Part shown: in pieces, positions 289-58,086 of the stretch | How the letters are laid out: every line of letters starts with the position of its first letter | Position numbering within the stretch: the stretch's first letter is position 1 | NCBI GenBank assembly: GCA_902791215.1 | Contig: CADAUZ010000028.1 | Location: forward strand, 1 to 64,000 | DNA: 64,000 nucleotides | Reading direction: 5' to 3' | Source: Oscillospiraceae bacterium | Lineage (GTDB): Bacteria > Bacillota > Clostridia > Oscillospirales > Oscillospiraceae | Position numbers and translations under genes: made by a program | The notes under the pieces: model-generated | Seen by the model: the letters and a program-made list of their open reading frames with translations, nothing else | Told to the model about the DNA's origin: nothing | Database searches by the model: none

Positions 289-425
289 TTGGTGTCAAAG
301 ATGTCCCTTGTTGGTGTCAGTTTTCCGGCAGTTGATACCAAAACTGAGCTTCTGGGATATCATGCTTCCTGACCAAGGCGGCCCTGATACCAGACTGAGC
401 CTTCTCTGATACCAAGGTGGTATCA
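289..425. repeat. TTGGTRTCA repeat array with 22-bp phasing
   Basis: Copies of TTGGTRTCA or its complement start at 289 (+), 311 (+), 333 (-), 385 (-) and 407 (-), with a sixth, GTGGTATCA, at 417 (+). The steps 289-311-333 and 385-407 are all exactly 22 bp, about two helical turns. Weaker copies may fill the 333-385 gap (GGGATATCA near 355, TGACCAAGG near 370). This is typical of iterons bound by a plasmid initiator, or of a partition or operator array. It lies just beyond the 3' end of the sigma-like gene. Confidence 0.6.
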
Positions 426-1139
426 TTCTTGATCATGTTCGACATCAATCCAGTAATCAAGAGTATCCCAGTGCAGGCCAGCTCTGAAATGTTGCAGTGC
501 TTCCTGCTCAAGCTCATCCGCGCGGGTGCGGGTTATAAGGAAGTGTTCAGCAGCTTTCCTTTGGGGTACTTCATCATCAAACGGATAACCAAAGCGATAG
601 CAGAGGTACTTCTTTTCACGCGGTTCAAGAGAATTGACCGAGCGGCAAATTTCCTCCGATGTTTCCCGCGCAAGCGCCATTGGTTCCGGGCGTTTCTTAT
701 ATTCATCAGGCCGAAGCTTCAGATTTATGTGCGCGGGCTCTTCCTCTTCCTGCTTATCCTCCTCTACGCGGAAACCTTCATTTTCCTCTTTGATGTCTGA
801 AAAGTATTCTCTCTCAAGATCTGCCAACTTGTTCTCAATACATTTTCCGGCAAGCGTGAGCAGTTTCGTCCCGTAAGAAGGCTTAAACGCAATGATCGCT
901 CTCCACATGCCTTCCCTCGCGGCCTGCATGAGATCGTCCAAATCTACAGAATACTCCTGTGTATTCTTAAATGCTATGTTCCAGACTTTGCGAGCTCTCT
1001 CCGCGAGAAAAGCCTCATTACGCCAGATCAATACATCCATCGCATGCCCGCTGCCGGCCTGTGCCAGCGCGCACAGAGCCTCGTTGCTGATCGTCTTCCA
1101 CTCCGGCGGGACATACGGTTTTATTTCCAGATCTTTCAT
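423..1139 (-). CDS. Sigma-70-like protein of the mobile element
   Basis: A 238-residue protein with the layout of a small sigma factor. Residues about 20-115 resemble sigma region 2, including an acidic DLDDLMQAAREGMWRA helix and an aromatic AFKPSYGTKL stretch. A charged linker follows (about 118-150), and residues about 165-220 resemble region 4, starting EPREKKYLCYRFG. The start codon overlaps the stop of the upstream XRE gene (ATGA, 1136-1139), so the two are almost certainly co-transcribed and translationally coupled. A role in switching on element genes is inferred. It could instead be an inactive sigma homologue that regulates by other means. Confidence 0.7.
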   Translation of the reverse strand: MKDLEIKPYVPPEWKTISNEALCALAQAGSGHAMDVLIWRNEAFLAERARKVWNIAFKNTQEYSVDLDDLMQAAREGMWRAIIAFKPSYGTKLLTLAGKCIENKLADLEREYFSDIKEENEGFRVEEDKQEEEEPAHINLKLRPDEYKKRPEPMALARETSEEICRSVNSLEPREKKYLCYRFGYPFDDEVPQRKAAEHFLITRTRADELEQEALQHFRAGLHWDTLDYWIDVEHDQE

Positions 1140-1969
1140 TCTTTTTTCTGTGCGGCTATACGCGCGATGCTGATGAAAGCGGACAGCAGCTCATCCGAAA
1201 TCCGGTCACTGATCTCCGGGAGATAGGCAAGACTCTGTCTGAATCTCTCGGCAAATTCCTCCTCGGAAACTTGTATGAGCTGCGAAGCCTCGCCGCCCTT
1301 GGTGAAATGCTCGACTGTGTTTTGGAAAGCTTCCCGTGTCAGCTTCTTCATTTCCTCTACCCGCGACGGGAATTCCTTTTTCAATCGAACAATGATGCTC
1401 CGAAACTCCGCTTGCATTTGCGTGAGCTCCGTTTCATACAGCGGTGTGGACATGGCGGAAACGATCTTGCTCGTCTTTCTTGCTGCACCCCGCAGCTTGG
1501 CATCTTCCTTTCCGATGCGTCCCACCACCTCGCTGACCGATGCATACAGCTGATTACGTGCGGCATATCCGGCCGCCATGGTTTCGTCAAAGAAATCCGC
1601 GACATGGTTGCTCAGAACTGCAAACTGTGGGTCTTCCAACAGCAGGTTGACCACCTGAACATTGACAGCACCGGTGTAAAGATTCCGGGCCGCCTGAATG
1701 GAAAGCCCCAGCTCTTCAATATCGTAATTCTTCCGGTCGGGAATGTCCGTCAGGCCGAGAAGAAAATCTGTGGACACGGAGAAAAATTTTGCCAGGGCCT
1801 GTACCGCCTCGTCCGAGACCTTCTTGTTTTTATTGTTCTCGATGCGGCCAAGCAAACTTTCATTGACACCGCTGTGTTCAGCAAGCTCTTTTCGCGTCAG
1901 GCCCTTTTCCTCGCGCAAATCGCGTACCCGGTCGCAGAGTTTCCCAGGCAGATATGTTTTCTGCTTCAT
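1136..1969 (-). CDS. XRE-family transcriptional regulator
   Basis: A 277-residue protein with an N-terminal Cro/C1-type helix-turn-helix at about residues 10-65 (RDLREEKGLTRKELAEHSG, then VNESLLGRIEN and a FFSVSTDFLLG ending). The long C-terminal part is helical and unrecognised. The start at 1969 has a GGAGG site about 9 nt upstream. A pair of 17-bp dyads lies upstream at 2030-2097 and is its likely operator, so it probably controls its own operon and the divergent small gene at 2142. It is the first gene of a two-gene operon with the sigma-like protein. Confidence 0.85.
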   Translation of the reverse strand: MKQKTYLPGKLCDRVRDLREEKGLTRKELAEHSGVNESLLGRIENNKNKKVSDEAVQALAKFFSVSTDFLLGLTDIPDRKNYDIEELGLSIQAARNLYTGAVNVQVVNLLLEDPQFAVLSNHVADFFDETMAAGYAARNQLYASVSEVVGRIGKEDAKLRGAARKTSKIVSAMSTPLYETELTQMQAEFRSIIVRLKKEFPSRVEEMKKLTREAFQNTVEHFTKGGEASQLIQVSEEEFAERFRQSLAYLPEISDRISDELLSAFISIARIAAQKKE

Positions 1970-2029
1970 TCGATTCGCCTCCTCTCGACAGCCGGAAGTA
2001 TCCTGCTGTCATCTTCTATTATACAAGAA

Positions 2030-2097
2030 AACTTGTCCCAAAAGTTTCCCTCAATTCGGTGCCGTTCGGCAACCAGGGGAAACTTTTGGGACAAGTT
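2030..2097. promoter_or_regulatory. Paired inverted operators between XRE regulator and small divergent gene
   Basis: Two perfect 21-bp arms (2030-2050 and 2077-2097) form an inverted repeat around a 26-nt centre. Each arm contains its own dyad, AACTTGTCCCAAAAGTT at 2030-2046 and AACTTTTGGGACAAGTT at 2081-2097. A minus-strand TATAAT (2018-2023) adjoins the left arm. The centre has a small GGTGCCG/CGGCAACC hairpin. The layout suggests cooperative binding by the divergent XRE repressor. Confidence 0.65.
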
Positions 2098-2141
2098 ATA
2101 TGTTAGACTGTGTACAGAAAGAAAAAAGGAGGCGCACAAAA

Positions 2142-2252
2142 ATGAAAGGATATTATGCGGGAAACGGGTATTACGGTTATGTGGATGGGCGCTATGTGCT
2201 GTTCAGCAGCGAGAGCGATTATTACGAGATGATGGAAGACGAAGCCGCATAA
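2142..2252 (+). CDS. Small acidic, tyrosine-rich protein of unknown function
   Basis: A 36-residue ORF with an AAAAGGAGG ribosome-binding site about 8 nt before the ATG. The protein is very rich in Tyr and Gly at the N-terminus (MKGYYAGNGYYGYVDGRY) and acidic at the C-terminus. It is divergent from the XRE regulator and downstream of its operators, so it is probably repressed by it. Similar short tyrosine-rich proteins occur in mobile elements of related bacteria from memory; no function is known to me. Confidence 0.6.
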   Translation: MKGYYAGNGYYGYVDGRYVLFSSESDYYEMMEDEAA

Positions 2253-2255
2253 GGT

Positions 2256-3245
2256 TTATGGATACAATTCAGTGAGGCGCTTTGCCTCGGCGCGCATTTC
2301 CTCCACCAGCGATTTTGGTCCGGTGATGCGCACGCCGTCGCCCAGCGCGATGATCCAGGCGATAAAATGGCGGCTGGCGCTGACCTCGACCGACGCGGTG
2401 AAAGTATCGTCATCGATCGGCTGGATCGTGATGTCTTTGCCGAAACGGTCGATCAGAGGGCCGGCCATGTCGCTGCGTCCCTCAAGGGTCACGCGCGTGA
2501 GCTTGCCGCCGTACATGCCGAAGAGGCTGCGCGTGTATTTCGCGGCGTCGAACTCCTTGAATTGCTGCTTGCCCTCGCGGGGCTTATCGGTGATGGACAG
2601 GCGCAGGATCTTGTCCACGCGGTAGTGCTTGATCTTTCGGTCGTTTGCGTCGTAGGCGACGAGGTAGTAGTTTTCATCGTCCCACAGCAGGCACCAGGGG
2701 CTGATGCGATACCACTCCCCACCGTGCCGAAGCTCCTGTTCTCTGTGTACGTTCCACTGAAAGTATTGGAAACGGATCTGCCGGTCGGCGTTGATGGCCT
2801 CATGCAGCATGTCCACGTTGTAGAAGATGCTCTCGTTCATGGCCTTGATGCGCCCGGTGATCAACACCTGCCTCTGGAGGCGCTGGGCCTCGTGGATACT
2901 GGCGAGAGATTCCAGCTTCTTGATGAGCTGGCGGGACTTCTTCTCCGTGATGAAACGGGAGCCCTGCACGGCATCCACCAGCAATTTCAGCTCCGGCAGC
3001 TCGAAACGGCGCGTGGCGAGATGATAGAGCACATTCCGCCCCGACTGTTCACTGAGGATTTCGAGGCCAAATTTCTCCAGCTCTCCGAAGTCCTTGTATA
3101 AGGTTTTCCGCTCCGCGTTCACACCGTAAGCCTCGAGCCGGTCAACGATCTCCTGCAGGGACAGGGCATGGGAGTCGTCCGTCTCCTCGGAGAAGATTTT
3201 GACAAGGTAGAGCATTTTAAGTTTCTGGTTATCTCCCGCGGCCAT
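2256..3245 (-). CDS. WYL-domain transcriptional regulator
   Basis: A 329-residue protein. It has an N-terminal winged helix (about 1-75, KMLYLVKIFSEETDD and ALSLQEIVDRLEAYGV), a WYL domain at about 130-225 (the core reads WYRISPWCLLWDDENYYLVA, followed by an HYRVDKI motif), and a C-terminal WCX-like extension (about 240-329). GAGGG lies 7 nt before the ATG. WYL proteins bind ligands or nucleic acid and often control anti-phage loci. It is divergent from darT across a 251-bp AT-rich gap, so control of darTG is a reasonable inference. Confidence 0.9.
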   Translation of the reverse strand: MAAGDNQKLKMLYLVKIFSEETDDSHALSLQEIVDRLEAYGVNAERKTLYKDFGELEKFGLEILSEQSGRNVLYHLATRRFELPELKLLVDAVQGSRFITEKKSRQLIKKLESLASIHEAQRLQRQVLITGRIKAMNESIFYNVDMLHEAINADRQIRFQYFQWNVHREQELRHGGEWYRISPWCLLWDDENYYLVAYDANDRKIKHYRVDKILRLSITDKPREGKQQFKEFDAAKYTRSLFGMYGGKLTRVTLEGRSDMAGPLIDRFGKDITIQPIDDDTFTASVEVSASRHFIAWIIALGDGVRITGPKSLVEEMRAEAKRLTELYP

Positions 3246-3496: not shown

Positions 3497-4090
3497 ATGG
3501 CAACTCCGCCGAGCAAAGGAAAGCTCTTGTATCACATCACTCACATTGACAATATTCCTTCAATCCTTACTCTTGGCTTAATGTCAAGAAAAACTCTTGA
3601 GCAAACTGGAATCTACTTCAAAGACACTGCTGATCAAGAAATACTTAACAAACGAGAAAACTATAAGGATTCACTATCTCAATACGTGCTTTTTCATTTC
3701 TTCGCAAAAAACCCATACGATGGTGCTGTGTGTAAAACAAATGGTGCTGAAAACATGGTAATAATAACTATTCCTCGAGCCTTGCATCAGCAATATAGGT
3801 TTTTGGTTATTCCCTCTCACCCATTAGATAGCGATACCCCAGATATTTATCCATATGAAGAAGGTTTGAAAAAAATAAGATGGGATATCTTGGATATGCA
3901 GGTTGGCAGAGACTATCATAATCCTGAAATCAAAAAGGCATGTATGGCGGAATGTGTTGCTGATCGTACTATCTCGCCTTTAGATTTCTATGGATTATAT
4001 GTAAAAACTGAAGCAGCAAAAGCGAAAATACAGAGAATGGAGAATTCACACCTCGTAAACATTGAGGTTAAGCCGTTTATGTTTCCATGA
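3497..4090 (+). CDS. darT: DarT-family DNA ADP-ribosyltransferase toxin
   Basis: A 197-residue protein of the DarT (DUF4433) family. Known members transfer ADP-ribose from NAD+ to bases in single-stranded DNA, stalling replication and in several cases aborting phage infection. Visible signatures are YHITHIDNIPSILTLGL near the N-terminus, the NKR-containing ADP-ribosyl-turn region (Arg53), and the late AECVADRTIS segment carrying the probable catalytic Glu152. AAAGGAAG precedes the ATG. It is followed after 31 bp by its macro-domain antitoxin. Both genes are strikingly AT-rich compared with their neighbours, suggesting separate acquisition. The DarT1 or DarT2 subclass cannot be settled by eye. 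Confidence 0.9.
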   Translation: MATPPSKGKLLYHITHIDNIPSILTLGLMSRKTLEQTGIYFKDTADQEILNKRENYKDSLSQYVLFHFFAKNPYDGAVCKTNGAENMVIITIPRALHQQYRFLVIPSHPLDSDTPDIYPYEEGLKKIRWDILDMQVGRDYHNPEIKKACMAECVADRTISPLDFYGLYVKTEAAKAKIQRMENSHLVNIEVKPFMFP

Positions 4091-4121
4091 ATGCCACGTT
4101 CCCAATCAAGGAGATGTGTAA

Positions 4122-5141
4122 ATGTTTTTTTTCACTACAGGAGATTTATTAAAGGCAGATGTTGACGCTCTAGTCAACACTGTAAATTGTGAAGGATATA
4201 TGGGAAAGGGCATTGCATACCAATTCAAACTCCAGTTCCCTGAGAATAACGATTCTTATGTTAAGGCTTGTAAAGCGGGCAAGCTTACACCAGGTAGCCT
4301 GCATTATTTTAAAGAAAAAAATAAATATATTATTAATTTTCCAACTAAAAATAAGTGGCGAGAAAAATCAAAAATGGAATATATTGATTCTGGACTTGAT
4401 GAATTAGTACTTCTTGTTAGATCATTACAATTAAGAAGTATCGCAATACCGCCTTTAGGTAGTGGAAATGGTGGGTTACCTTGGGCAGAGGTTAAGCGCC
4501 TAATCGTAGACAAATTGACTGTCCTCGCACCTCAAATAGATATCTATATTTATGAACCATCTAGGAATTTTAAGGCTGTCCCAAGTGTTGAGCCATCATT
4601 AAGTGCATCAGCATTGATCTTGATGGAAATAAAATTGCACCTGAATTCATTTGATAAATTTAGGCTACAAAAGGCTGCTTATTTTGCCAATATTTTTTCC
4701 TTAAAAAAATATTTTCGTTTTGAAGCTTATAAATATGGTCCATATGATCATTCGATAGATATAATTAGTAAGAAAATACGCGAATTTCAGGCATATTATC
4801 ATACTGAATCGACAGAGGAAGCGAAAAAAATTTTGTATAATAAGATCGTAAGTAATTCCGTTAACAAAAAAATAAGCGATTTTTGGATTCCTATCCAAAA
4901 ATCATGTAAGCTTGTCAATTCAATTGAATCAGACCATGAACTAGAGTGTTTGGCGACAATTTGTTTTTTAATTGAGCAATCAGGTAGTATGACTGCTTCG
5001 GAGATTGTCAAAGGCTTCGAAAAATGGTCACCAGAAAAAGCACAACGCTTTTCTGAAAAAGAGATCCTTAACGGAATTAACAAATTATCTTCTTTGGATA
5101 TCGTTCAAGAAGGGTTACTCGGGTATAGTCTTGTCTCATAA
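4122..5141 (+). CDS. darG: DarG macro-domain antitoxin
   Basis: A 339-residue partner of DarT. Residues about 1-155 are a macrodomain (TGDLLKADVDALVNTVN, CEGYMGKGIAYQFK, then IPPLGSGNGGLPW) that removes ADP-ribose from DNA. The INFPTKNKWR segment (Lys76) matches the lysine region needed for hydrolysis in DarG. Residues about 160-339 form a second domain with KFRLQKAAYFANIF and EAYKYGPYDHS, resembling the DUF4065/Panacea fold of other antitoxins; it probably binds DarT directly. AAGGAG lies 8 nt before the ATG. Confidence 0.9.
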   Translation: MFFFTTGDLLKADVDALVNTVNCEGYMGKGIAYQFKLQFPENNDSYVKACKAGKLTPGSLHYFKEKNKYIINFPTKNKWREKSKMEYIDSGLDELVLLVRSLQLRSIAIPPLGSGNGGLPWAEVKRLIVDKLTVLAPQIDIYIYEPSRNFKAVPSVEPSLSASALILMEIKLHLNSFDKFRLQKAAYFANIFSLKKYFRFEAYKYGPYDHSIDIISKKIREFQAYYHTESTEEAKKILYNKIVSNSVNKKISDFWIPIQKSCKLVNSIESDHELECLATICFLIEQSGSMTASEIVKGFEKWSPEKAQRFSEKEILNGINKLSSLDIVQEGLLGYSLVS

Positions 5142-5436: not shown

Positions 5437-5751
5437 TTATCGAATACTGATTGTTTCTTTCTTCACGGCTTTGCTGTCATAATATCGGCGATACTCCATG
5501 GTGTCGCACGCGATCAGGCTTGGGAAGCTGCCGGACTCGCAGTTCAAACCTGTAATAGAGCTTGCCGCAGGAATGTCCGCTTTGCGCTCTTCCATGTCAT
5601 AGAGCATCAGGAATAGCGCATCCTGGGCCATATCCATCGCCTCGACGAGCGTTTCGCCGGACGTTGCAATTTCCAGATCAGGGAAAACAACGCTGTATGC
5701 GCCATCTTCCGGAGTAAAAATTGCCGAATATACATATTTTTTCCCTGCCAT
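5437..5751 (-). CDS. HicB-like antitoxin without adjacent HicA
   Basis: A 104-residue protein with the HicB N-terminal fold: YSAIFTPEDGAYSVVFPDLE, then ATSGETLVEAMDMAQDALFL. HicB proteins neutralise HicA mRNA interferases and repress their operon. The start at 5751 is chosen over an upstream ATG because a GGGAGGT site lies 9 nt before it. The C-terminal DNA-binding domain usual in HicB is not obvious: the protein ends YYDSKAVKKETISIR. No hicA-like gene (short, basic, with a GSHH motif) was found on either side, so it is an orphan or part of an uncharacterised pair. Confidence 0.75.
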   Translation of the reverse strand: MAGKKYVYSAIFTPEDGAYSVVFPDLEIATSGETLVEAMDMAQDALFLMLYDMEERKADIPAASSITGLNCESGSFPSLIACDTMEYRRYYDSKAVKKETISIR

Positions 5752-5903
5752 TAGTTGGTTACCTCCCTGTATTTGAGTATACTCTTTTTTAATTATTCTT
5801 GATTTAAAATAACTGCTCACTTTTTTGGATAGTGCTGCACTATAACAGATCATGACAGCAGAATCCCCATAGATATCCCTTCATCTCATCATAGTCTAAT
5901 TGA

Positions 5904-6718: not shown

Positions 6719-6761
6719 CAAGCCGCTGGTTACATGAATCAATCATGTGTCCGGCGGCTTG
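6719..6761 (+). other. Nested hairpin in the parM leader
   Basis: CAAGCCGC (6719-6726) pairs with GCGGCTTG (6754-6761) around an inner ACATGA/TCATGT hairpin. It lies between the par -10 box and parM, 40 bp before the start codon. It may be an attenuator or mRNA-stability element. Confidence 0.45.
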
Positions 6762-6801
6762 TGCTTTATATCTGCGCAATTCAAGAAAGGAGAAAACGAA
6801 A

Positions 6802-7722
6802 ATGAATCTTACCAACACAAAGCCCGTGATCATCGGCATCGACCATGGTTACGGCAACATCAAGACCGCGCATGCGATCTTCAAGACCGGCGTCACCGTC
6901 TGCGACACCGAGCCGATCTTCAAAGGCAATCTGCTTGTCTACCGGGATCAGTACTACATCATCGGGGACGAGCACAAGGAATTTTCCGCCGCGAAAATGG
7001 GTGATCAGGATTATTACATTCTGACCCTCGCGGCGGTCGGGATGGAGCTCAAGCTTCGGGGCTTGAACAAAGCCAACGTGCATCTGGCGGCAGGACTGCC
7101 GCTTACCTGGGTGGGCGAACAGAAGGAGGACTTCAAAGCCTACCTGCTCCAGAACAAGGAGGTGGACTTCACATTCAGGGGTGAAAGTTTTCATGTGGAG
7201 TTTGTGGGGGCTGATGTGTTGCCGCAGGGCCTGTCCGCCGTGGCGGATCATCTGCGCGAGTTTAAGGGGGTGAACATGCTGTGTGACATCGGCAACGGCA
7301 CCATGAGCATCATGTACATCAACAACGGCAAGCCGGTTTCCACCAAAAGCTTCACCGAGAAATACGGCACCCACCAGTGCACGCTTGCCGCGCGCGAAAT
7401 GCTGATGCGCAAATGCGGTGTATCCGTGGACGAAGATGTGATTGAGACCGTGCTTCGTTATGGCGAGGCGGATATCGGCATGGAGTATCTGGACGTGATC
7501 CGACAGGCGGCAAAGGAATACGCGGCCGGCATCATGCGCCGCCTGCGCGAGCATGAGTATAACCCGGCGCTCATGAAGCTCTATGTGGTGGGCGGCGGAG
7601 GCTGCCTGATCCAGAACTTCATCGACTTTGACCCTGGCCGGGTCACGATCAACGACGATATCTGTGCCACTGCCAAGGGCTATGAGCGGCTGGCTGAACG
7701 AAAGCTGGAAGGCAAGGTATGA
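6802..7722 (+). CDS. parM: ParM/StbA-like actin-family partition protein
   Basis: A 306-residue actin-like ATPase. Phosphate-binding loop 1 is GIDHGYGNIKTA (about residues 11-22), loop 2 is CDIGNGTMSIMYI (about 165), and the adenosine motif is VVGGGG (about 268). Such proteins polymerise to push apart plasmid copies. The ATG at 6802 has GAAAGGAGA about 8 nt upstream; an earlier in-frame ATG lies in the leader hairpin and lacks a site. The gene overlaps the next by 4 nt, the usual parM-parR layout. Its presence means the element has, or descends from, a plasmid-like stage. Confidence 0.85.
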   Translation: MNLTNTKPVIIGIDHGYGNIKTAHAIFKTGVTVCDTEPIFKGNLLVYRDQYYIIGDEHKEFSAAKMGDQDYYILTLAAVGMELKLRGLNKANVHLAAGLPLTWVGEQKEDFKAYLLQNKEVDFTFRGESFHVEFVGADVLPQGLSAVADHLREFKGVNMLCDIGNGTMSIMYINNGKPVSTKSFTEKYGTHQCTLAAREMLMRKCGVSVDEDVIETVLRYGEADIGMEYLDVIRQAAKEYAAGIMRRLREHEYNPALMKLYVVGGGGCLIQNFIDFDPGRVTINDDICATAKGYERLAERKLEGKV

Positions 7723-8289: not shown

Positions 8290-8508
8290 ATGAACAACAC
8301 AAGAAATGAAATCAAGGCGCAGATCATCCGCGCCGGGTTTACCATGCAGGAGGTGTGCGACCGGCTGCATGACGACTATGGTTGGAGCGACAGTGTCTCC
8401 AACTTTTCCAACAAGCTCAGGCGGGAGTCGCTCCGCTTTCGGGAGATCGTGGAGCTGGCCGATGTGCTGGGCTATGACATTGTTTGGCAAAGGAGGAAGG
8501 AAAGATAA
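8290..8508 (+). CDS. Small helix-turn-helix-like protein upstream of relaxase
   Basis: A 72-residue basic protein. The segment KAQIIRAGFTMQEVCDRLHD followed by FREIVELADVLGYDIVWQ resembles small XRE/DUF6471-type proteins that accompany mob genes in Firmicute elements. GAAAGGAG precedes the ATG. Its stop codon TAA (8506-8508) overlaps the presumed start of the relaxase, so it is coupled to it. It may regulate mob or act in the relaxosome; this is inferred from position. Confidence 0.6.
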   Translation: MNNTRNEIKAQIIRAGFTMQEVCDRLHDDYGWSDSVSNFSNKLRRESLRFREIVELADVLGYDIVWQRRKER

Positions 8509-9461
8509 GTAATAACGCCCAATACGCCATTTTTCGATTTAAGAAATACAAGGGGCCGGAGATCGGCAGAATCGAGGCCCATAATGAGCGAAGGAAAGAA
8601 GTATACGCCAGTAATCCCGACATTGACCTGAGTCGGACGCAGCACAATTTTCACATCATTGAGCCGACAGACCGCTACCGCAAAATGTCCGAGGCCCTGA
8701 TCAAACAGTATGGCTGCCCCAGAGTCCGCAGCGACAGTGTAAGAGTTGTGGAGACCCTTATCACCGCAAGTCCGGAGTTTTTTGAGGGGAAAAGTGAGCA
8801 AGAGATCCGCGCTTTCTTCCAGCACGCCGTTGACTTTCTGAAGAATGAGCTGGGAGAGGATCGGCTGATTGCCGCCCCTGTCCACATGGACGAGAAGACG
8901 CCGCACATGCACCTCTCTTTCGTCCCGATCACGAAGGACGGGAGGCTCTCAGCAAAGGACATCGTTGGCAATTGCAAAAAACTCACCGCATGGCAGGATC
9001 GCTTCTGGCTGCACATGGTCAGCATTTATCCCGATTTGGAGCGTGGGGAAAGTGCCAGCAAGACCGGGCGCGAGCATATCCCGCCGCGCATCTTCAAGCA
9101 GGCGGCAAACCTGAACAAACAGGCCAAGGAGATTCTGGAGCTTTTGTCGGAGATCAACGCCTTCAACGCAAAGAAAACCGCTGCTGAGCTGGAAGCGATG
9201 TTGAAGAAATTCTTCCCAGAGCTGGGGAAGTTTCTCACGAAAACCAAGAAATACGACCAGGCGATTCGCAGCCTGAAGGCGGAAAACGCAGATTTGAAGC
9301 AGGATTTGAAGGAAGCCACAGACGGCGACATGAAACGCCGTCTGGCAGAGGCCCAGCTCAAAACCGATTATATAGAACTGGAGCGCACGCTCCAGAAAAT
9401 TCCGCTGGAGATCGTCTTCCGTTACTCCGGCAAAACTACTGAACAGGAAAGGAGCGAGTGA
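8484..9461 (+). CDS. mobV: MobV-type relaxase (Mob/Pre family)
   Basis: A 325-residue frame (318 from the likely true start). The N-terminal relaxase domain has the early RIEAHNERRKEVYASNPDID motif and the metal-binding HMDEKTPHMHLSFVPI motif (three His). The C-terminal third is coiled coil. MobV proteins nick at oriT and let elements move in trans. The start is odd: GGAGG (8492-8496) is correctly spaced for codon 8505, but that codon is ATA, not ATG. The only standard upstream start is TTG at 8484, which has no ribosome-binding site. Internal ATGs would remove the first motif. Confidence 0.85.
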   Translation: MAKEEGKISNNAQYAIFRFKKYKGPEIGRIEAHNERRKEVYASNPDIDLSRTQHNFHIIEPTDRYRKMSEALIKQYGCPRVRSDSVRVVETLITASPEFFEGKSEQEIRAFFQHAVDFLKNELGEDRLIAAPVHMDEKTPHMHLSFVPITKDGRLSAKDIVGNCKKLTAWQDRFWLHMVSIYPDLERGESASKTGREHIPPRIFKQAANLNKQAKEILELLSEINAFNAKKTAAELEAMLKKFFPELGKFLTKTKKYDQAIRSLKAENADLKQDLKEATDGDMKRRLAEAQLKTDYIELERTLQKIPLEIVFRYSGKTTEQERSE

Positions 9462-9570: not shown

Positions 9571-9861
9571 ATGGAATTTAAGGTGAGACTGTTTCTCGGC
9601 GATCAGCTGCTGGACCCCTCCGACTACAGCAAGGTTTATATCCACTGCAAGGATATTGACCGCATCGTGAACGACATTTACGAGCGAAACCTCCGCTGGA
9701 GATTGGAGAACGGTCTGCCGCCTCCGATGGAAGAGGATGACGACGAGCCGCCCGCAAAGAAGCCCTCTGTCCTCAAGGCTCTGGAGGAAAAGAAGGAAGA
9801 GGTCAGGGCGAGGCCGAAGAAAGCTTCCCGCAAGAAGGAAAACCGGGACGTAGCCAGATGA
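9571..9861 (+). CDS. Small charged hypothetical protein
   Basis: A 96-residue protein with a folded N-terminal half (MEFKVRLFLGDQLLDPSDYS, then KDIDRIVNDIYERNLRWRLE) and a disordered tail, first acidic and proline-rich (about 50-62), then strongly basic (about 75-96). AAAGGAGG lies about 9 nt before the ATG. It sits between relaxase and recombinase, with terminators on both sides. I do not recognise it; a DNA-binding accessory role would suit the tail but is a guess. Confidence 0.6.
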   Translation: MEFKVRLFLGDQLLDPSDYSKVYIHCKDIDRIVNDIYERNLRWRLENGLPPPMEEDDDEPPAKKPSVLKALEEKKEEVRARPKKASRKKENRDVAR

Positions 9862-9880: not shown

Positions 9881-9916
9881 ACGGTATGGGTTCCCTTTGG
9901 GCCCATACCGTTTTTT
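9881..9916 (+). terminator. Rho-independent terminator before recombinase gene
   Basis: ACGGTATGGG (9881-9890) pairs with CCCATACCGT (9902-9911), followed by a T-run to 9916. Confidence 0.85.
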
Positions 9917-9963
9917 CGCTGTTCCTACATTTCGCAATTCGCACGAGAAAAACGCAAAATCTA

Positions 9964-9992
9964 TTGTTTTTAAGGAAAATCTTTGCTATGAT
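9964..9992 (+). promoter_or_regulatory. Promoter of the serine recombinase gene
   Basis: TTGTTT (9964-9969) and TATGAT (9987-9992) have a 17-bp spacer. Because the -10 box covers 9989, an ATG at that position cannot be the start, which supports 10,015. Confidence 0.6.
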
Positions 9993-10014
9993 ACAGATGA
10001 AGGATGGTGAGGCA

Positions 10015-11586
10015 ATGAAGAAAGAGAGAATCTACCATCTCAGAAACATATTGGAACTGAGATCAAACATGAAGATCGTCATTGACGATGCCGTTGAGCT
10101 GGACGAGGACGGCAACTTCCTTGTCAATGTGGGCTACCTCCGTGTTTCCACCGACCGGCAGGCAGATCTCGGCTTCGGGTTGGATATTCAGGAGGCTGAT
10201 ATCGTCCGCTACTGCACGGCGAACGGGTATAAAAACCTGGTGCTGTACATCGACGACGGTTATACCGGCACGAATATGCAGCGCCCCGGTCTGCAGGCGA
10301 TCACGAAAGCGATCACGGACTTTAACGACGGCAAATCCCATCTCCGCATCAACGCAGTCGTGGTCGCACGAATCGACCGACTGGGCCGCACGCTGCTGGG
10401 GACGCTGCAATTCATTCAGGATTATATTGTCAGCGCAAAGGACAGCAAGAACAGCGCCGTCAACCGCAACAAAGAGGACATCAATTTCGTCTCAGTGGCG
10501 GAAAACTACTGTCGGATCGACAAGGAGAATCCCCAGGGAAAGTTCCTGCTGATGCTCTTTGCAACGCTGGCGGAGTTTGACCGCGACCAGATCGTGGAAA
10601 AGCTCAAACGCGGACGGCAGGCACGGGTCGCCTCCGGCAAGTGGATGGGCGGCGGCAGGGCCCCCTACGGTTACCGCTACGACAAGGAGACCTCTTCCCT
10701 TGTGATCGTCCCGGAAGAGGCCAAGGTGGTCAAAGAGATTTTCCGCCTGTTCATTGAAGAGAAGATGGCACCGCAGAAAATTGCGGATCGCTTTCATTTC
10801 AGCGGCGACCGGGCCATTACGCAGATCCTCCAGCGCAAATCCCTGACTGGCTGCATCGTCTTTAACGGCGAGGAATACCCCGGCATGCACGAGGCGATCA
10901 TCCCCCTGTCCGTCTGGCAGGAGGCGCAGGACGAAATCGCGCGGCGAAGCGTCCACCGCACTGCATCCGTCTATCTGCTGTCCGGTCTGCTCTACTGCGG
11001 CGAGTGCGGCGCGAAGATGCGTTACCAGAAATGGGGCAAAAAAGGCACCAAGCTGGTGTGCTACACTTCCCAGGAATCCAGCAACGAGCGCTTCGGCAAA
11101 GCCGAAAGCTGCGACAGTGAGCGTTTTTGGAGCAGCGACGTGGAGGAGGCGGTCATAGATGAGCTGTTCCGCCTGAGTTATCTGGTGTCGGACAAGGATC
11201 GAAAGGCTGTCGGCACGGTCGATCCCATCGGGGTCCTGCAGAAGGAGCTCGCCGCCGAGCGCAGACGCCTGAGCCGCCTGTACGACTTTGAGGATGAGGA
11301 CGAGCCTGACGACGTGCTGAAAGAAAAAATCCTCGACGCGAAGAAGCGCATGGCGAGCATCGAGGCGCAGATCCGCGAGGAAGAAGAAAATGCCAGCATC
11401 GAGAAGAAGGTCAATCGAGCACGGGAAATCCTGCGGACGCTGAAATCCACCTGGCCGGAGATGACGAAGGAACAGCAGCAGGGCACCTGCCAGCGGCTGA
11501 TCGACCGGGTCGTGATCTACAAGGACGGACACATCGATGTGTTCCTCAAGCTCAGAAATTATCTCATAAGTGAAGAAAAATCCTGA
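10015..11586 (+). CDS. Large serine recombinase (element integrase)
   Basis: A 523-residue large serine recombinase. The resolvase domain (about 35-200) starts VGYLRVSTDRQADLG with nucleophile Ser45. A recombinase domain follows (about 225-330), then a zinc ribbon (LYCGECGAKMRY with later Cys residues, about 363-405) and a coiled coil (about 440-490). These enzymes join attP and attB with a 2-bp core and excise with a directionality factor. The gene lies at the very end of the element, 50 bp from the sigG coding sequence, in the same orientation. In Bacillus, spoIVCA has the same relation to the 3' half of sigK. Confidence 0.92.
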   Translation: MKKERIYHLRNILELRSNMKIVIDDAVELDEDGNFLVNVGYLRVSTDRQADLGFGLDIQEADIVRYCTANGYKNLVLYIDDGYTGTNMQRPGLQAITKAITDFNDGKSHLRINAVVVARIDRLGRTLLGTLQFIQDYIVSAKDSKNSAVNRNKEDINFVSVAENYCRIDKENPQGKFLLMLFATLAEFDRDQIVEKLKRGRQARVASGKWMGGGRAPYGYRYDKETSSLVIVPEEAKVVKEIFRLFIEEKMAPQKIADRFHFSGDRAITQILQRKSLTGCIVFNGEEYPGMHEAIIPLSVWQEAQDEIARRSVHRTASVYLLSGLLYCGECGAKMRYQKWGKKGTKLVCYTSQESSNERFGKAESCDSERFWSSDVEEAVIDELFRLSYLVSDKDRKAVGTVDPIGVLQKELAAERRRLSRLYDFEDEDEPDDVLKEKILDAKKRMASIEAQIREEEENASIEKKVNRAREILRTLKSTWPEMTKEQQQGTCQRLIDRVVIYKDGHIDVFLKLRNYLISEEKS

Positions 11587-12133
11587 AATCCGACGATTTC
11601 AGGAACAAGCTAACCAATTACTCCATCCGATATTCGTTCCCATGATTGCAGGGGAGCTGCGGCGTTTTCTGCGCGACCACAGCGCGGTGCGGGTATCGCG
11701 CTCCATGCGGGACACGGCTTATCGCGTTTTACAGGCCAAAGAAAAGCTCACCGCCGAGACCGGGCGGGAGCCGGATGTGGAGCAGATCGCCAAAGCGCTT
11801 GACATCCCGCGCCAGGATGTAGTTTTCGCCCTGGAGGCCATCACCGACCCCGTGTCGCTCTACGATCCCATCTACTCCGACGGCGGGGAAAACGCCACTG
11901 TTATGGATCAGATCGGCGACAGCCGCAATACCGACGAGCACTGGCTTGAGCAGATCGCGCTGGAGGAGGCGGTGCGGCGGCTCGACGAGCGGGAGAAGCG
12001 TATCCTCGCCCTGCGTTTTTACGACGGACGCACGCAGATGGAGGTTGCGAAAACCGTCGGCATCTCTCAGGCGCAGGTGTCACGGCTGGAGAAAAACGCG
12101 ATACGGCGGATCAAAAAAGAACTCGGAAACTAA
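11570..12133 (+). pseudogene. sigG: 3' fragment of sigG (forespore sigma factor), interrupted by the mobile element
   Basis: From Val at 11,636 to the stop, 165 codons match SigG residues 96-260: VPMIAGELRRFLRDHSAVRV, RDTAYRVLQ, FALEAITDPVSLYDPIYSDG and GISQAQVSRLEK. The phrasing RDTAYRVLQ and DPVSLYDPIYSDGG identifies SigG rather than SigF. Regions 3 and 4 are complete and undamaged; region 2, needed for the -10 box and core binding, is absent. Codons 1-22 of this frame (GTG at 11,570) come from the element and overlap the recombinase end. The frame is intact, so precise excision could restore the gene. Alone the fragment should be inactive. Confidence 0.9.
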
Positions 12134-57073: not shown

Positions 57074-58086
57074 GCCTCTTCGCCCTCCTCTTCTTCCGGG
57101 CGCTCGATATAGCAGGCGCCGTTTTTCACGTTCATCCAGCACGCGGCCAGGTGGTCGTGGCCGACCCAGTATTCCTTCGGCTTTTCCTGCAGGCAGATCT
57201 TCATGGCGTTGTCGCAGCGCGGCGCGAAGGGGCAGCCGGGCGGCATGTGCAGCAGGTCGATGGGCGTGCCGGTGATGGGCACAAGGCGGGTCTTTTTGTC
57301 GTCGCTCATGTCGGGGATGGAGCGCATGAGGCCCTTGGTGTACTCATGCATGGGGTGGTAGAACACGGCGTCGGTGGTGCCGCGCTCGCACACGCCGCCG
57401 GCGTACATGACGATCATCTCCTTGCAGACGGAGGCGATGACGCCCATGTCGTGGGTAATCATGATGATGGCCATGCCGAGCTCCTTCTGGAGCTCCAGCA
57501 TCAGGTCCAGGATCTGGGCCTGGATGGTCACGTCGAGGGCGGTGGTGGGCTCGTCGGCGATGAGGATGTCCGGCTCACAGGCCAGGGCCATGGCGATCAT
57601 GACGCGCTGGCGCATGCCGCCGGAGAGCTCGAACGGGTACTGTTTGAGGCGCTTGTCCGGCTCGTTGATGCCGACGAGGGACAGAAGCTCAACAGCCCTG
57701 GCCTCGGCCTCCTCTCCGCGCTTGTCTGTGTGGAGGGTGATGGCCTCGATGAGCTGGTTGCCGATGGTGAAGGTGGGATTCAGCGAGGTCATGGGGTCCT
57801 GGAAGATGATGCTGATTTTATTGCCGCGGATCTCGCGCATCTCCGCGTCGCTCTTGCCGACCAGCTCCTCGCCGTGGAGCTTGATGGAGCCGGAGACAAT
57901 GCGGCCGGGGTTGGTGAGGATCTGCAGAATGGAATAAGCCGTGACGGATTTGCCCGAGCCGCTCTCCCCCACGATGCCGAGGACGCTGCCCTTTTCCAGG
58001 CGGAAGGTCAGGCCGTTGACGGCCTTGACCTCACCGGAGGGTGTGAAGAAGGAGGTATGCAGATCGGTGACTTCAAGCATGCTCAT
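57070..58086 (-). CDS. oppD: Peptide ABC transporter ATP-binding protein OppD
   Basis: A 338-residue ATPase. Walker [12 protein letters not shown], signature [12 protein letters not shown], Walker [13 protein letters not shown]. The C-terminal extension has [15 protein letters not shown]. It works as a heterodimer with OppF on the cytoplasmic face. It lies 12 bp after oppC. Confidence 0.94.

Follow-up and report, generated by a model that had tools for sequence, protein, structure and literature searches.

Among the described interruptions of sporulation genes, the closest to the case reported here is the skin element, which splits the sigma-factor gene sigK in Bacillus subtilis and Clostridioides difficile and carries its own large serine recombinase (LSR). 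As far as the consulted part of the report on C. difficile goes, the recombinase (CD1231) is expressed from a sigma-A promoter, and a separate recombination directionality factor (RDF), CD1234, sets the compartment (PMC5025042). Similar LSR elements that also rely on an extra factor sit in gerE of Bacillus cereus (gin) and in yabG of Clostridium botulinum (yin), the latter having been found both integrated and as an excised circle in one culture; the targets given in the consulted parts of the two papers are sigK, spsM, the dipicolinate synthase gene, gerE and yabG, and the word sigG occurs in neither (PMC5595907, PMC10747680). The SPbeta prophage in spsM (recombinase YokA, RDF YotN/SprB) follows the same LSR chemistry and differs, according to the excerpts available, in being a phage genome with another target. 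The rearranged sporulation genes named above are mother-cell genes, and the altered chromosome dies with the cell. For sigK and gerE, this assignment to the mother cell is given in passages of the reports already cited (PMC5025042, PMC5595907, PMC10747680). In contrast, the gene considered here is sigG, which encodes a forespore factor according to a section of a recent review (PMC8953710) and thus acts in the cell whose genome is inherited. The stretch of DNA analysed, hereafter the window, comprises 64,000 nucleotides, bases 1-64000 of the 64,084 bp contig CADAUZ010000028.1 (C28) in the Oscillospiraceae bacterium assembly GCA_902791215.1 (67 contigs, 3.19 Mb), and it holds the 3′ part of a split sigG together with one end of an element that has its own LSR. 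No description of a split sigG was found in the titles and abstracts of the open-access literature searched.

The 3′ part occupies positions 11636..12133 of the forward strand, where 165 codons and a stop run intact from Val (GTT, 11636-11638) to the stop codon (12131-12133). NCBIfam SigG models align with it from profile position 80-82 to at most one residue from the end (TIGR02850, positions 80-253 of 254), as the first-pass annotation of the window had read this frame. That annotation had also supposed that a frame ending with SigG residues 1-95 should lie at the other end of the element, and a profile search of the whole genome located it outside the window, on contig C23 at about 57622-57906 (L011:1492-1776), where it covers SigG model positions 2-97; the right end of this contig lies about 3 kb past the break. 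The break falls inside a Pro codon of SigG, FSTYGVP|MI, with the junction on C23 reading ...TTTTCCACCTATGGTGTTCC|AGCGATTAACGGATGG... and that in the window ...CTCCATCCGATATTCGTTCC|CATGATTGCAGGGG... The short repeat expected between them is GTTCC, common to both junctions, and fusion there gives the in-frame sequence FSTYGVPMIAGEL. The joined product is 94-98% identical to intact SigG in the protein collection (98% over 258 aa with P0002); another SigG entry, P0001 (448 aa), contains a large internal tandem duplication and was set aside as probably an assembly oddity. Neither a third nor a complete sigG, the latter being what, like a missing 5′ half, would have pointed to a simple pseudogene, was found in the whole genome at the cut-off used in the SigG-model search, whose remaining matches are other sigma factors, full-length or partial, with SigF- and SigA-like proteins as the best. 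The element can be followed from 57.9 kb of C23 to the contig end, across an unassembled stretch, and then over C28 1-11.6 kb, so that about 14.7 kb of it are visible.

The LSR gene (523 aa, 10015..11586, forward strand) lies directly before the 3′ part and in the same orientation, as had been noticed from the start, and ends 49 bp before the break. Its product has the domain architecture of a large serine recombinase, with Resolvase, Recombinase and Zn_ribbon_recom domains (Pfam PF00239, PF07508 and PF13408). A short part of it can be aligned with PDB chains of YokA (E 4e-8 to 6e-8); its orthologues adjoin the 3′ half of sigG in relatives. The putative attR site (11618..11645, forward strand) consists of an element arm, CCATCC (11623-11628), and the core GTTCC (11636-11640), with the crossover predicted at the CC of 11639-11640; by eye, CCATCC pairs with the GGATGG of attL on C23, symmetrically about the same CC. 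Related loci also have conserved arms: with near-identical loci and the arm type of the window's genus excluded, information content in 41 loci is 0.89 bits per base within the attL arm (+1..+20) and 0.06 beyond it, and in 67 loci it is 0.78 within the attR arm (-20..-1) and 0.04 beyond it. The common arm type, TTTCNAC...GTNGAAA, and that of the window's genus, CCATCC...GGATGG, are both palindromic (the second as judged by eye) around one dinucleotide, the CC of the Pro codon. In the coding DNA of sigG itself, TTTCNAC and GAAA also occur, closer to the centre by 4 bp than in the element arms. Known attB/attP pairs of LSRs stand in the same relation, with the zinc-domain motif shifted by 5 bp instead of 4 in the part of the literature consulted (PMC3783163), and such a relation of the sigG codons to the element arms would explain why these codons have been targeted repeatedly.

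The likeness to skin is close, in that a sporulation frame is interrupted, both parts are present, joining restores the frame, and the element has its own recombinase. We consider it probable that this is a skin-like LSR element in a forespore gene, with the sigG codons serving as attB and sigG being rebuilt by recombination during sporulation. A skin-like design had been suggested from the window alone, and the comparison of LSR, att sites and in-frame joining across genomes lends it strong support. The differences concern the compartment, as stated above, the RDF, which is known for skin (CD1234) and represented here by candidates, and the arrangement, since the sigG halves may be inverted or far apart.

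LSR-based interruption of sigG is recurrent and extends well beyond the window's genome. Of the 37 genomes in the window's genus, sigG is split in eight (this one included) and intact in 16, two cannot be judged because of contig edges, and SigG-grade matches are absent from 11, among which several genomes are incomplete. The split genes seen in this genus comprise seven 3′ and six 5′ halves, all intact in frame. In a survey of 394 genomes of the order, 336 of them with a SigG 3′ match, the matches listed and 160 re-searched genomes were inspected, and several families proved to have 3′ frames that are cut short at this same codon. Counting the window's genus, 29 split genomes were confirmed by reading at least one junction, the 5′ half being not found or not sought in several. 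Three further candidates were removed for their contig edges (G025, G030, G311), two with shortish frames were not counted (G108, G414), and G295 was left out for its intact VP site, its gene being broken at a second place. This second break, at about ISQ|AQVSRLEK in region 4.2, occurs in two families (L097, L110, L143, L210 from G295, L211 from G354 and L214 from G226), so that three pieces of sigG are present in some genomes.

A species-level genome collection was scanned with a degenerate pattern of the 3′ junction, designed to miss intact genes, and at least 118 stretches matched. All 80 stretches checked are the 3′ part of SigG (42-99% identity), scoring above the SigF of their own genome, with a margin of 2.7 bits in the shortest fragment and with only 15 and 31 residues visible in two of them. 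The other 38 (L168-L205) lie outside this check, and their titles include Pseudomonadales (L181) and Methanovirga (L192); among those checked, L159, titled Muribaculaceae, is probably a mislabelled or mixed bin. The hosts, which partly overlap with the surveyed genomes, include Flavonifractor sp. An112 and An82, Agathobaculum massiliense and A. desmolans, a Butyricicoccus sp., Hominifimenecus microfluidus, Coprococcus comes MSK.16.63, Lachnospiraceae and Defluviitaleaceae. The 5′ part, sought in 38 such genomes, was matched in 32 at E 1e-29 or better, and 28 of the 30 retrieved stop at the same codon. The other two (G444, the same as G180, with loci L126/L217; and G448, locus L141) run on into an intact gene; these genomes have an intact sigG beside an extra 3′ half with an attR-like arm, and were not counted as splits. 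With eight split genomes out of 37 in one genus and identical codons in many other genera, the split is not a product of chance. Of the 101 loci examined, 57 have a complete LSR frame directly before the 3′ half (40 of 80 among the named loci, which include six more with a partial frame); among 19 split genomes that have no LSR at the 3′ half and whose 5′ side was retrieved, 11 have the LSR at the 5′ half, reversed in 10.

Where the split is fixed, both halves are under strong purifying selection. By pairwise NG86 estimates of dN/dS, made without a tree, the two halves have values of 0.030 and 0.031 in five genomes of the Flavonifractor group, and of 0.088 and 0.055 in five Agathobaculum; the LSR gives 0.188 in the former five and 0.117 in 10 Agathobaculum-group loci. 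In the window's genus the values are 0.156/0.170 for split genes (6 and 7 genomes) and 0.156/0.188 for intact ones (13). The distances of LSR and sigG are strongly correlated in Flavonifractor (Mantel test, n=6, r 0.94, p 0.006) and in Agathobaculum (n=12, r 0.83, p 0.0002), whereas in the window's genus the correlation is weak (n=10, r 0.31, p 0.03) and the LSR is less diverged than sigG. The split is thus fixed in Agathobaculum, of which 10 of 11 sampled genomes were examined, and in Flavonifractor, and mobile in the window's genus.

The genomes with a split sigG have also kept genes for spore proteins. All 29 have gpr and 27 have a match to alpha/beta ssp, the two without it being 68% and 75% complete; among the intact controls, gpr is present in 15 of 15 and ssp in 14. 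Ten genomes selected for having no SigG match lack gpr in five cases and ssp in six, and two members of the window's genus without sigG (G001, G015) have neither. Four genomes that are 94-100% complete (G048, G085, G117, G123) retain ssp and gpr with no SigG match at the cut-off used. A separate observation is that ssp, coding for SASP and likewise a forespore gene, is itself split by another LSR element in L206, L207 (G366, A. massiliense) and L208 (G348); one element, of 20 kb, includes an apparent type I restriction system and the other is 4 kb long, and their LSR of 557-558 aa adjoins the 3′ part of ssp.

If sigG is rebuilt during sporulation, the following course can be proposed. In growing cells the LSR would be made from its own sigma-A-like promoter and the split state would be kept. 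By eye, such a promoter (TTGTTT, 17 bp, TATGAT) is seen at 9964..9992 of the forward strand, and the nine related elements compared have a similar layout upstream of the LSR; a terminator-like hairpin with a T run (9882..9917, forward strand, also by eye) lies between the upstream genes and the LSR, and similar hairpins are visible in the related elements compared. In the forespore, sigma-F would turn on the sigG promoter, which is still intact ahead of the 5′ half: the sequence G(T/C)ATC-N15-GGAAATA(C/A)TA, visible ahead of sigG in each of the 16 genomes examined for it (6 split, 10 intact), fits the sigma-F consensus. In elements of the window's type this promoter would also read into ORF182, the first gene of the element (on C23), as its start overlaps the stop of the truncated sigG. 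Either ORF182 or the small protein encoded beside the LSR would then act as the RDF, and recombination between attL and attR would rebuild sigG, whereupon SigG would become active. In lineages with a fixed split, the event would be reversed after germination through integration between attP and attB by the LSR alone, for inheritance of the forespore genome implies that excision or inversion is reversible there. Cells that lose the excised circle would be penalised by the toxin-antitoxin genes that the window's element carries. In short, sigG probably needs reassembly before a spore can be formed.

Both RDF candidates may fill this role by analogy with C. difficile, as described in the consulted part of that work (PMC5025042). 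ORF182 is fused in frame to the truncated sigG in two genomes (G031, G019), has a weak HNH_repeat match, and belongs to a group of proteins whose 13 aligned members share an invariant MTRKQA start and are located beside sigG halves; relatives occur in seven of 60 genomes, six of them split, the seventh being a fragment away from sigG in the intact G033. The small protein gene (96 aa, 9571..9861, forward strand), upstream of the LSR, weakly resembles ORFs at this place in other elements, of which 18 were read out (36-128 aa, 10-59% identical to the first row of the alignment). A loose pattern for such ORFs was found in 32 of the 57 loci with LSR, at least one being a false match, and nine of ten Agathobaculum loci carry a small ORF of their own type. 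The protein is predicted to form a beta-hairpin and a helix, and the small ORFs are less constrained than the LSR (dN/dS 0.26 and 0.36).

The strongest of the alternatives, and still an unlikely one, is an ordinary integrative element whose favoured attB lies in sigG, where sporulation would be confined to cells rid of the element, without developmental control. The window's element carries mobility genes, combining a serine integrase with a MobV relaxase as integrative mobilizable elements do; the genus has eight split and 16 intact genomes, and its LSR is less diverged than sigG and weakly co-inherited with it. For this genus alone, such an account is compatible with rebuilding of sigG during sporulation. 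However, it does not fit the fixed and co-inherited splits of Flavonifractor and Agathobaculum. The Flavonifractor insert of 6.4 kb combines the LSR and a small ORF with metabolic cargo (Fe-alcohol dehydrogenase, ferredoxin, aldehyde ferredoxin oxidoreductase, ThiS and ThiF), and its annotated ORFs include no mobility gene; colinearity between four Flavonifractor genomes extends over 7.18 kb (87-94% identity). Similarly, a Defluviitaleaceae insert of 2.55 kb consists of ORF182, tRNA-Trp, tRNA-Thr, a small ORF and the LSR. The first-pass proposal was that the element either abolishes sporulation or disappears with every spore cycle. Loss or spread is possible in the window's genus, whereas the proposal does not fit Flavonifractor and Agathobaculum, in which the halves are under purifying selection, the LSR is kept by descent, and gpr and ssp are retained.

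An improbable explanation is that the element broke sigG, sporulation was lost, and the halves are remnants of a pseudogene. Loss may indeed occur, as suggested by the 11 of 37 genomes in the genus without a SigG-grade match, several incomplete, and the second break of sigG in several Agathobaculum and the split ssp in two of them would suit such decay. Against it stand the in-frame halves of the window's genus, the dN/dS of 0.03-0.09 over a long divergence where the split is fixed, and the retention of gpr and ssp in split genomes, compared with their absence from G001 and G015. In addition, part of a review places Flavonifractor plautii, a species not located among the genomes analysed here, among the taxa implicated in spore formation (PMC8953710).

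Least probable is a two-piece sigma factor whose halves are translated separately and assemble without joining of DNA: two-subunit sigma factors exist (SigO-RsoA), the halves are widely separated in some genomes with both conserved, and some 3′ halves begin with ATG at the junction, but a ribosome-binding motif, present before the 5′ half in 18 of 18 loci, precedes the 3′ half in 2 of 100 (7.4% of random positions have one), which is an indirect test and makes separate working polypeptides unlikely, while the tail on the 5′ half is unconserved in length and sequence beyond the att arm, the DNA arms and LSR would be conserved without need, and the cut falls in region 2.3/2.4, the -10 recognition helix.

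Several observations weigh against reassembly of sigG by the LSR as proposed above. In eight of the 19 split genomes mentioned, no LSR was seen at either half, with up to 1.5 kb inspected on the 5′ side. No joined attP occurs in the collected loci, and neither a circle nor a recombined state of any one strain was found among them. For the joined Flavonifractor SigG, the closest protein matching over the full length is 96% identical and looks like a mosaic, with most differences in the 5′ half; P0121, whose halves differ unevenly, was not accepted as the excised Flavonifractor form. As for the RDF candidates, the small protein has no confident sequence match in the PDB and its fold search returned 0 matches, and that of ORF182 gave nothing usable (best E 2.8), with no recognisable relative among solved structures. 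ORF182 is also unseen in the Flavonifractor and Agathobaculum loci examined, and in reversed elements it lies outside the reach of the sigG promoter. The second break of sigG in some genomes could mean decay, and the ssp counted in two Agathobaculum (G366, G348) is the split one. Finally, the split in the window's genus is young or mobile, so that intact halves there say little about function.

The arrangement of the halves in other genomes also shows that simple excision cannot be the sole route. In an Agathobaculum assembled as a single contig of 4.0 Mb (G372), 757 kb separate the halves, which are on opposite strands; in A. massiliense (G366) the distance is 112 kb, both halves being on one strand and their order reversed. 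Inverted halves occur at a distance of 3.4 kb in Pseudoflavonifractor phocaeensis An507 (G331) and of 26 kb in Hominifimenecus. In other genomes, where gene names come from reading translations, the 3′ half is next to an apparent ftsK, ackA or transporter gene, or within a few kb of apparent dnaG and rpoD (G037). Many genomes have halves that are distant or on separate contigs beside apparent housekeeping genes. Recombination between such halves would invert the intervening DNA or yield two circles, rather than drop a small element; provided that the 3.2 Mb contig of A. massiliense is circular, its two circles would measure 112 kb and 3.1 Mb. We therefore put forward tentatively, with somewhat less than even confidence, that SigG in many gut Clostridia depends on a reversible programmed rearrangement, being joined in the forespore and split again at germination by the same LSR, with distant halves brought together through a large inversion or two chromosome circles and no DNA lost.

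If true, a rearranged forespore regulator would mean that the inherited genome is rearranged in every spore cycle. The reversibility of the switch, the upkeep of the excised DNA and the recurrence of the arrangement in commensal gut Clostridia, whose spores carry transmission from host to host, all become testable questions. Moreover, annotation pipelines may call sigG broken or absent in Flavonifractor and Agathobaculum, and the ability of these bacteria to sporulate would then be misjudged.

The remaining genes on the window's part of the element are cargo. Upstream of the small protein gene lie a MobV-family relaxase (8484..9461, forward strand; NCBIfam NF041497 above cut-off, Pfam PF01076) and a ParM/actin-like protein (6745..7722, forward; PF17989, PF21522). 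An adjacent DarT-like ADP-ribosyltransferase and macro-domain protein (3497..5141, forward; PF14487, PF01661) are probably a DarTG toxin-antitoxin pair, and they are followed by a HicB-like antitoxin on the reverse strand (5437..5853; PF15919). Sigma-70-like, XRE-like and WYL regulators lie on the reverse strand at 423..3245. No phage structural gene was found among the window ORFs scanned with Pfam or NCBIfam, PHROGs not having been searched and the middle of the element being unassembled. A whole element of 22.7 kb is present on one contig in G018; like that of the window it has ORF182 at its left end and the LSR with a small ORF (42% identical) at its right, and blastp found no further ORF in common between the two. 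The tRNA-Trp and tRNA-Thr genes inside the sigG insert of the Defluviitaleaceae genome G464 lie at L249:4058-4247, and if they are sole copies, this insert cannot be lost. In G437 (L113), the sigG halves are separated by only about 430 bp, with att-like ends and no LSR inside.

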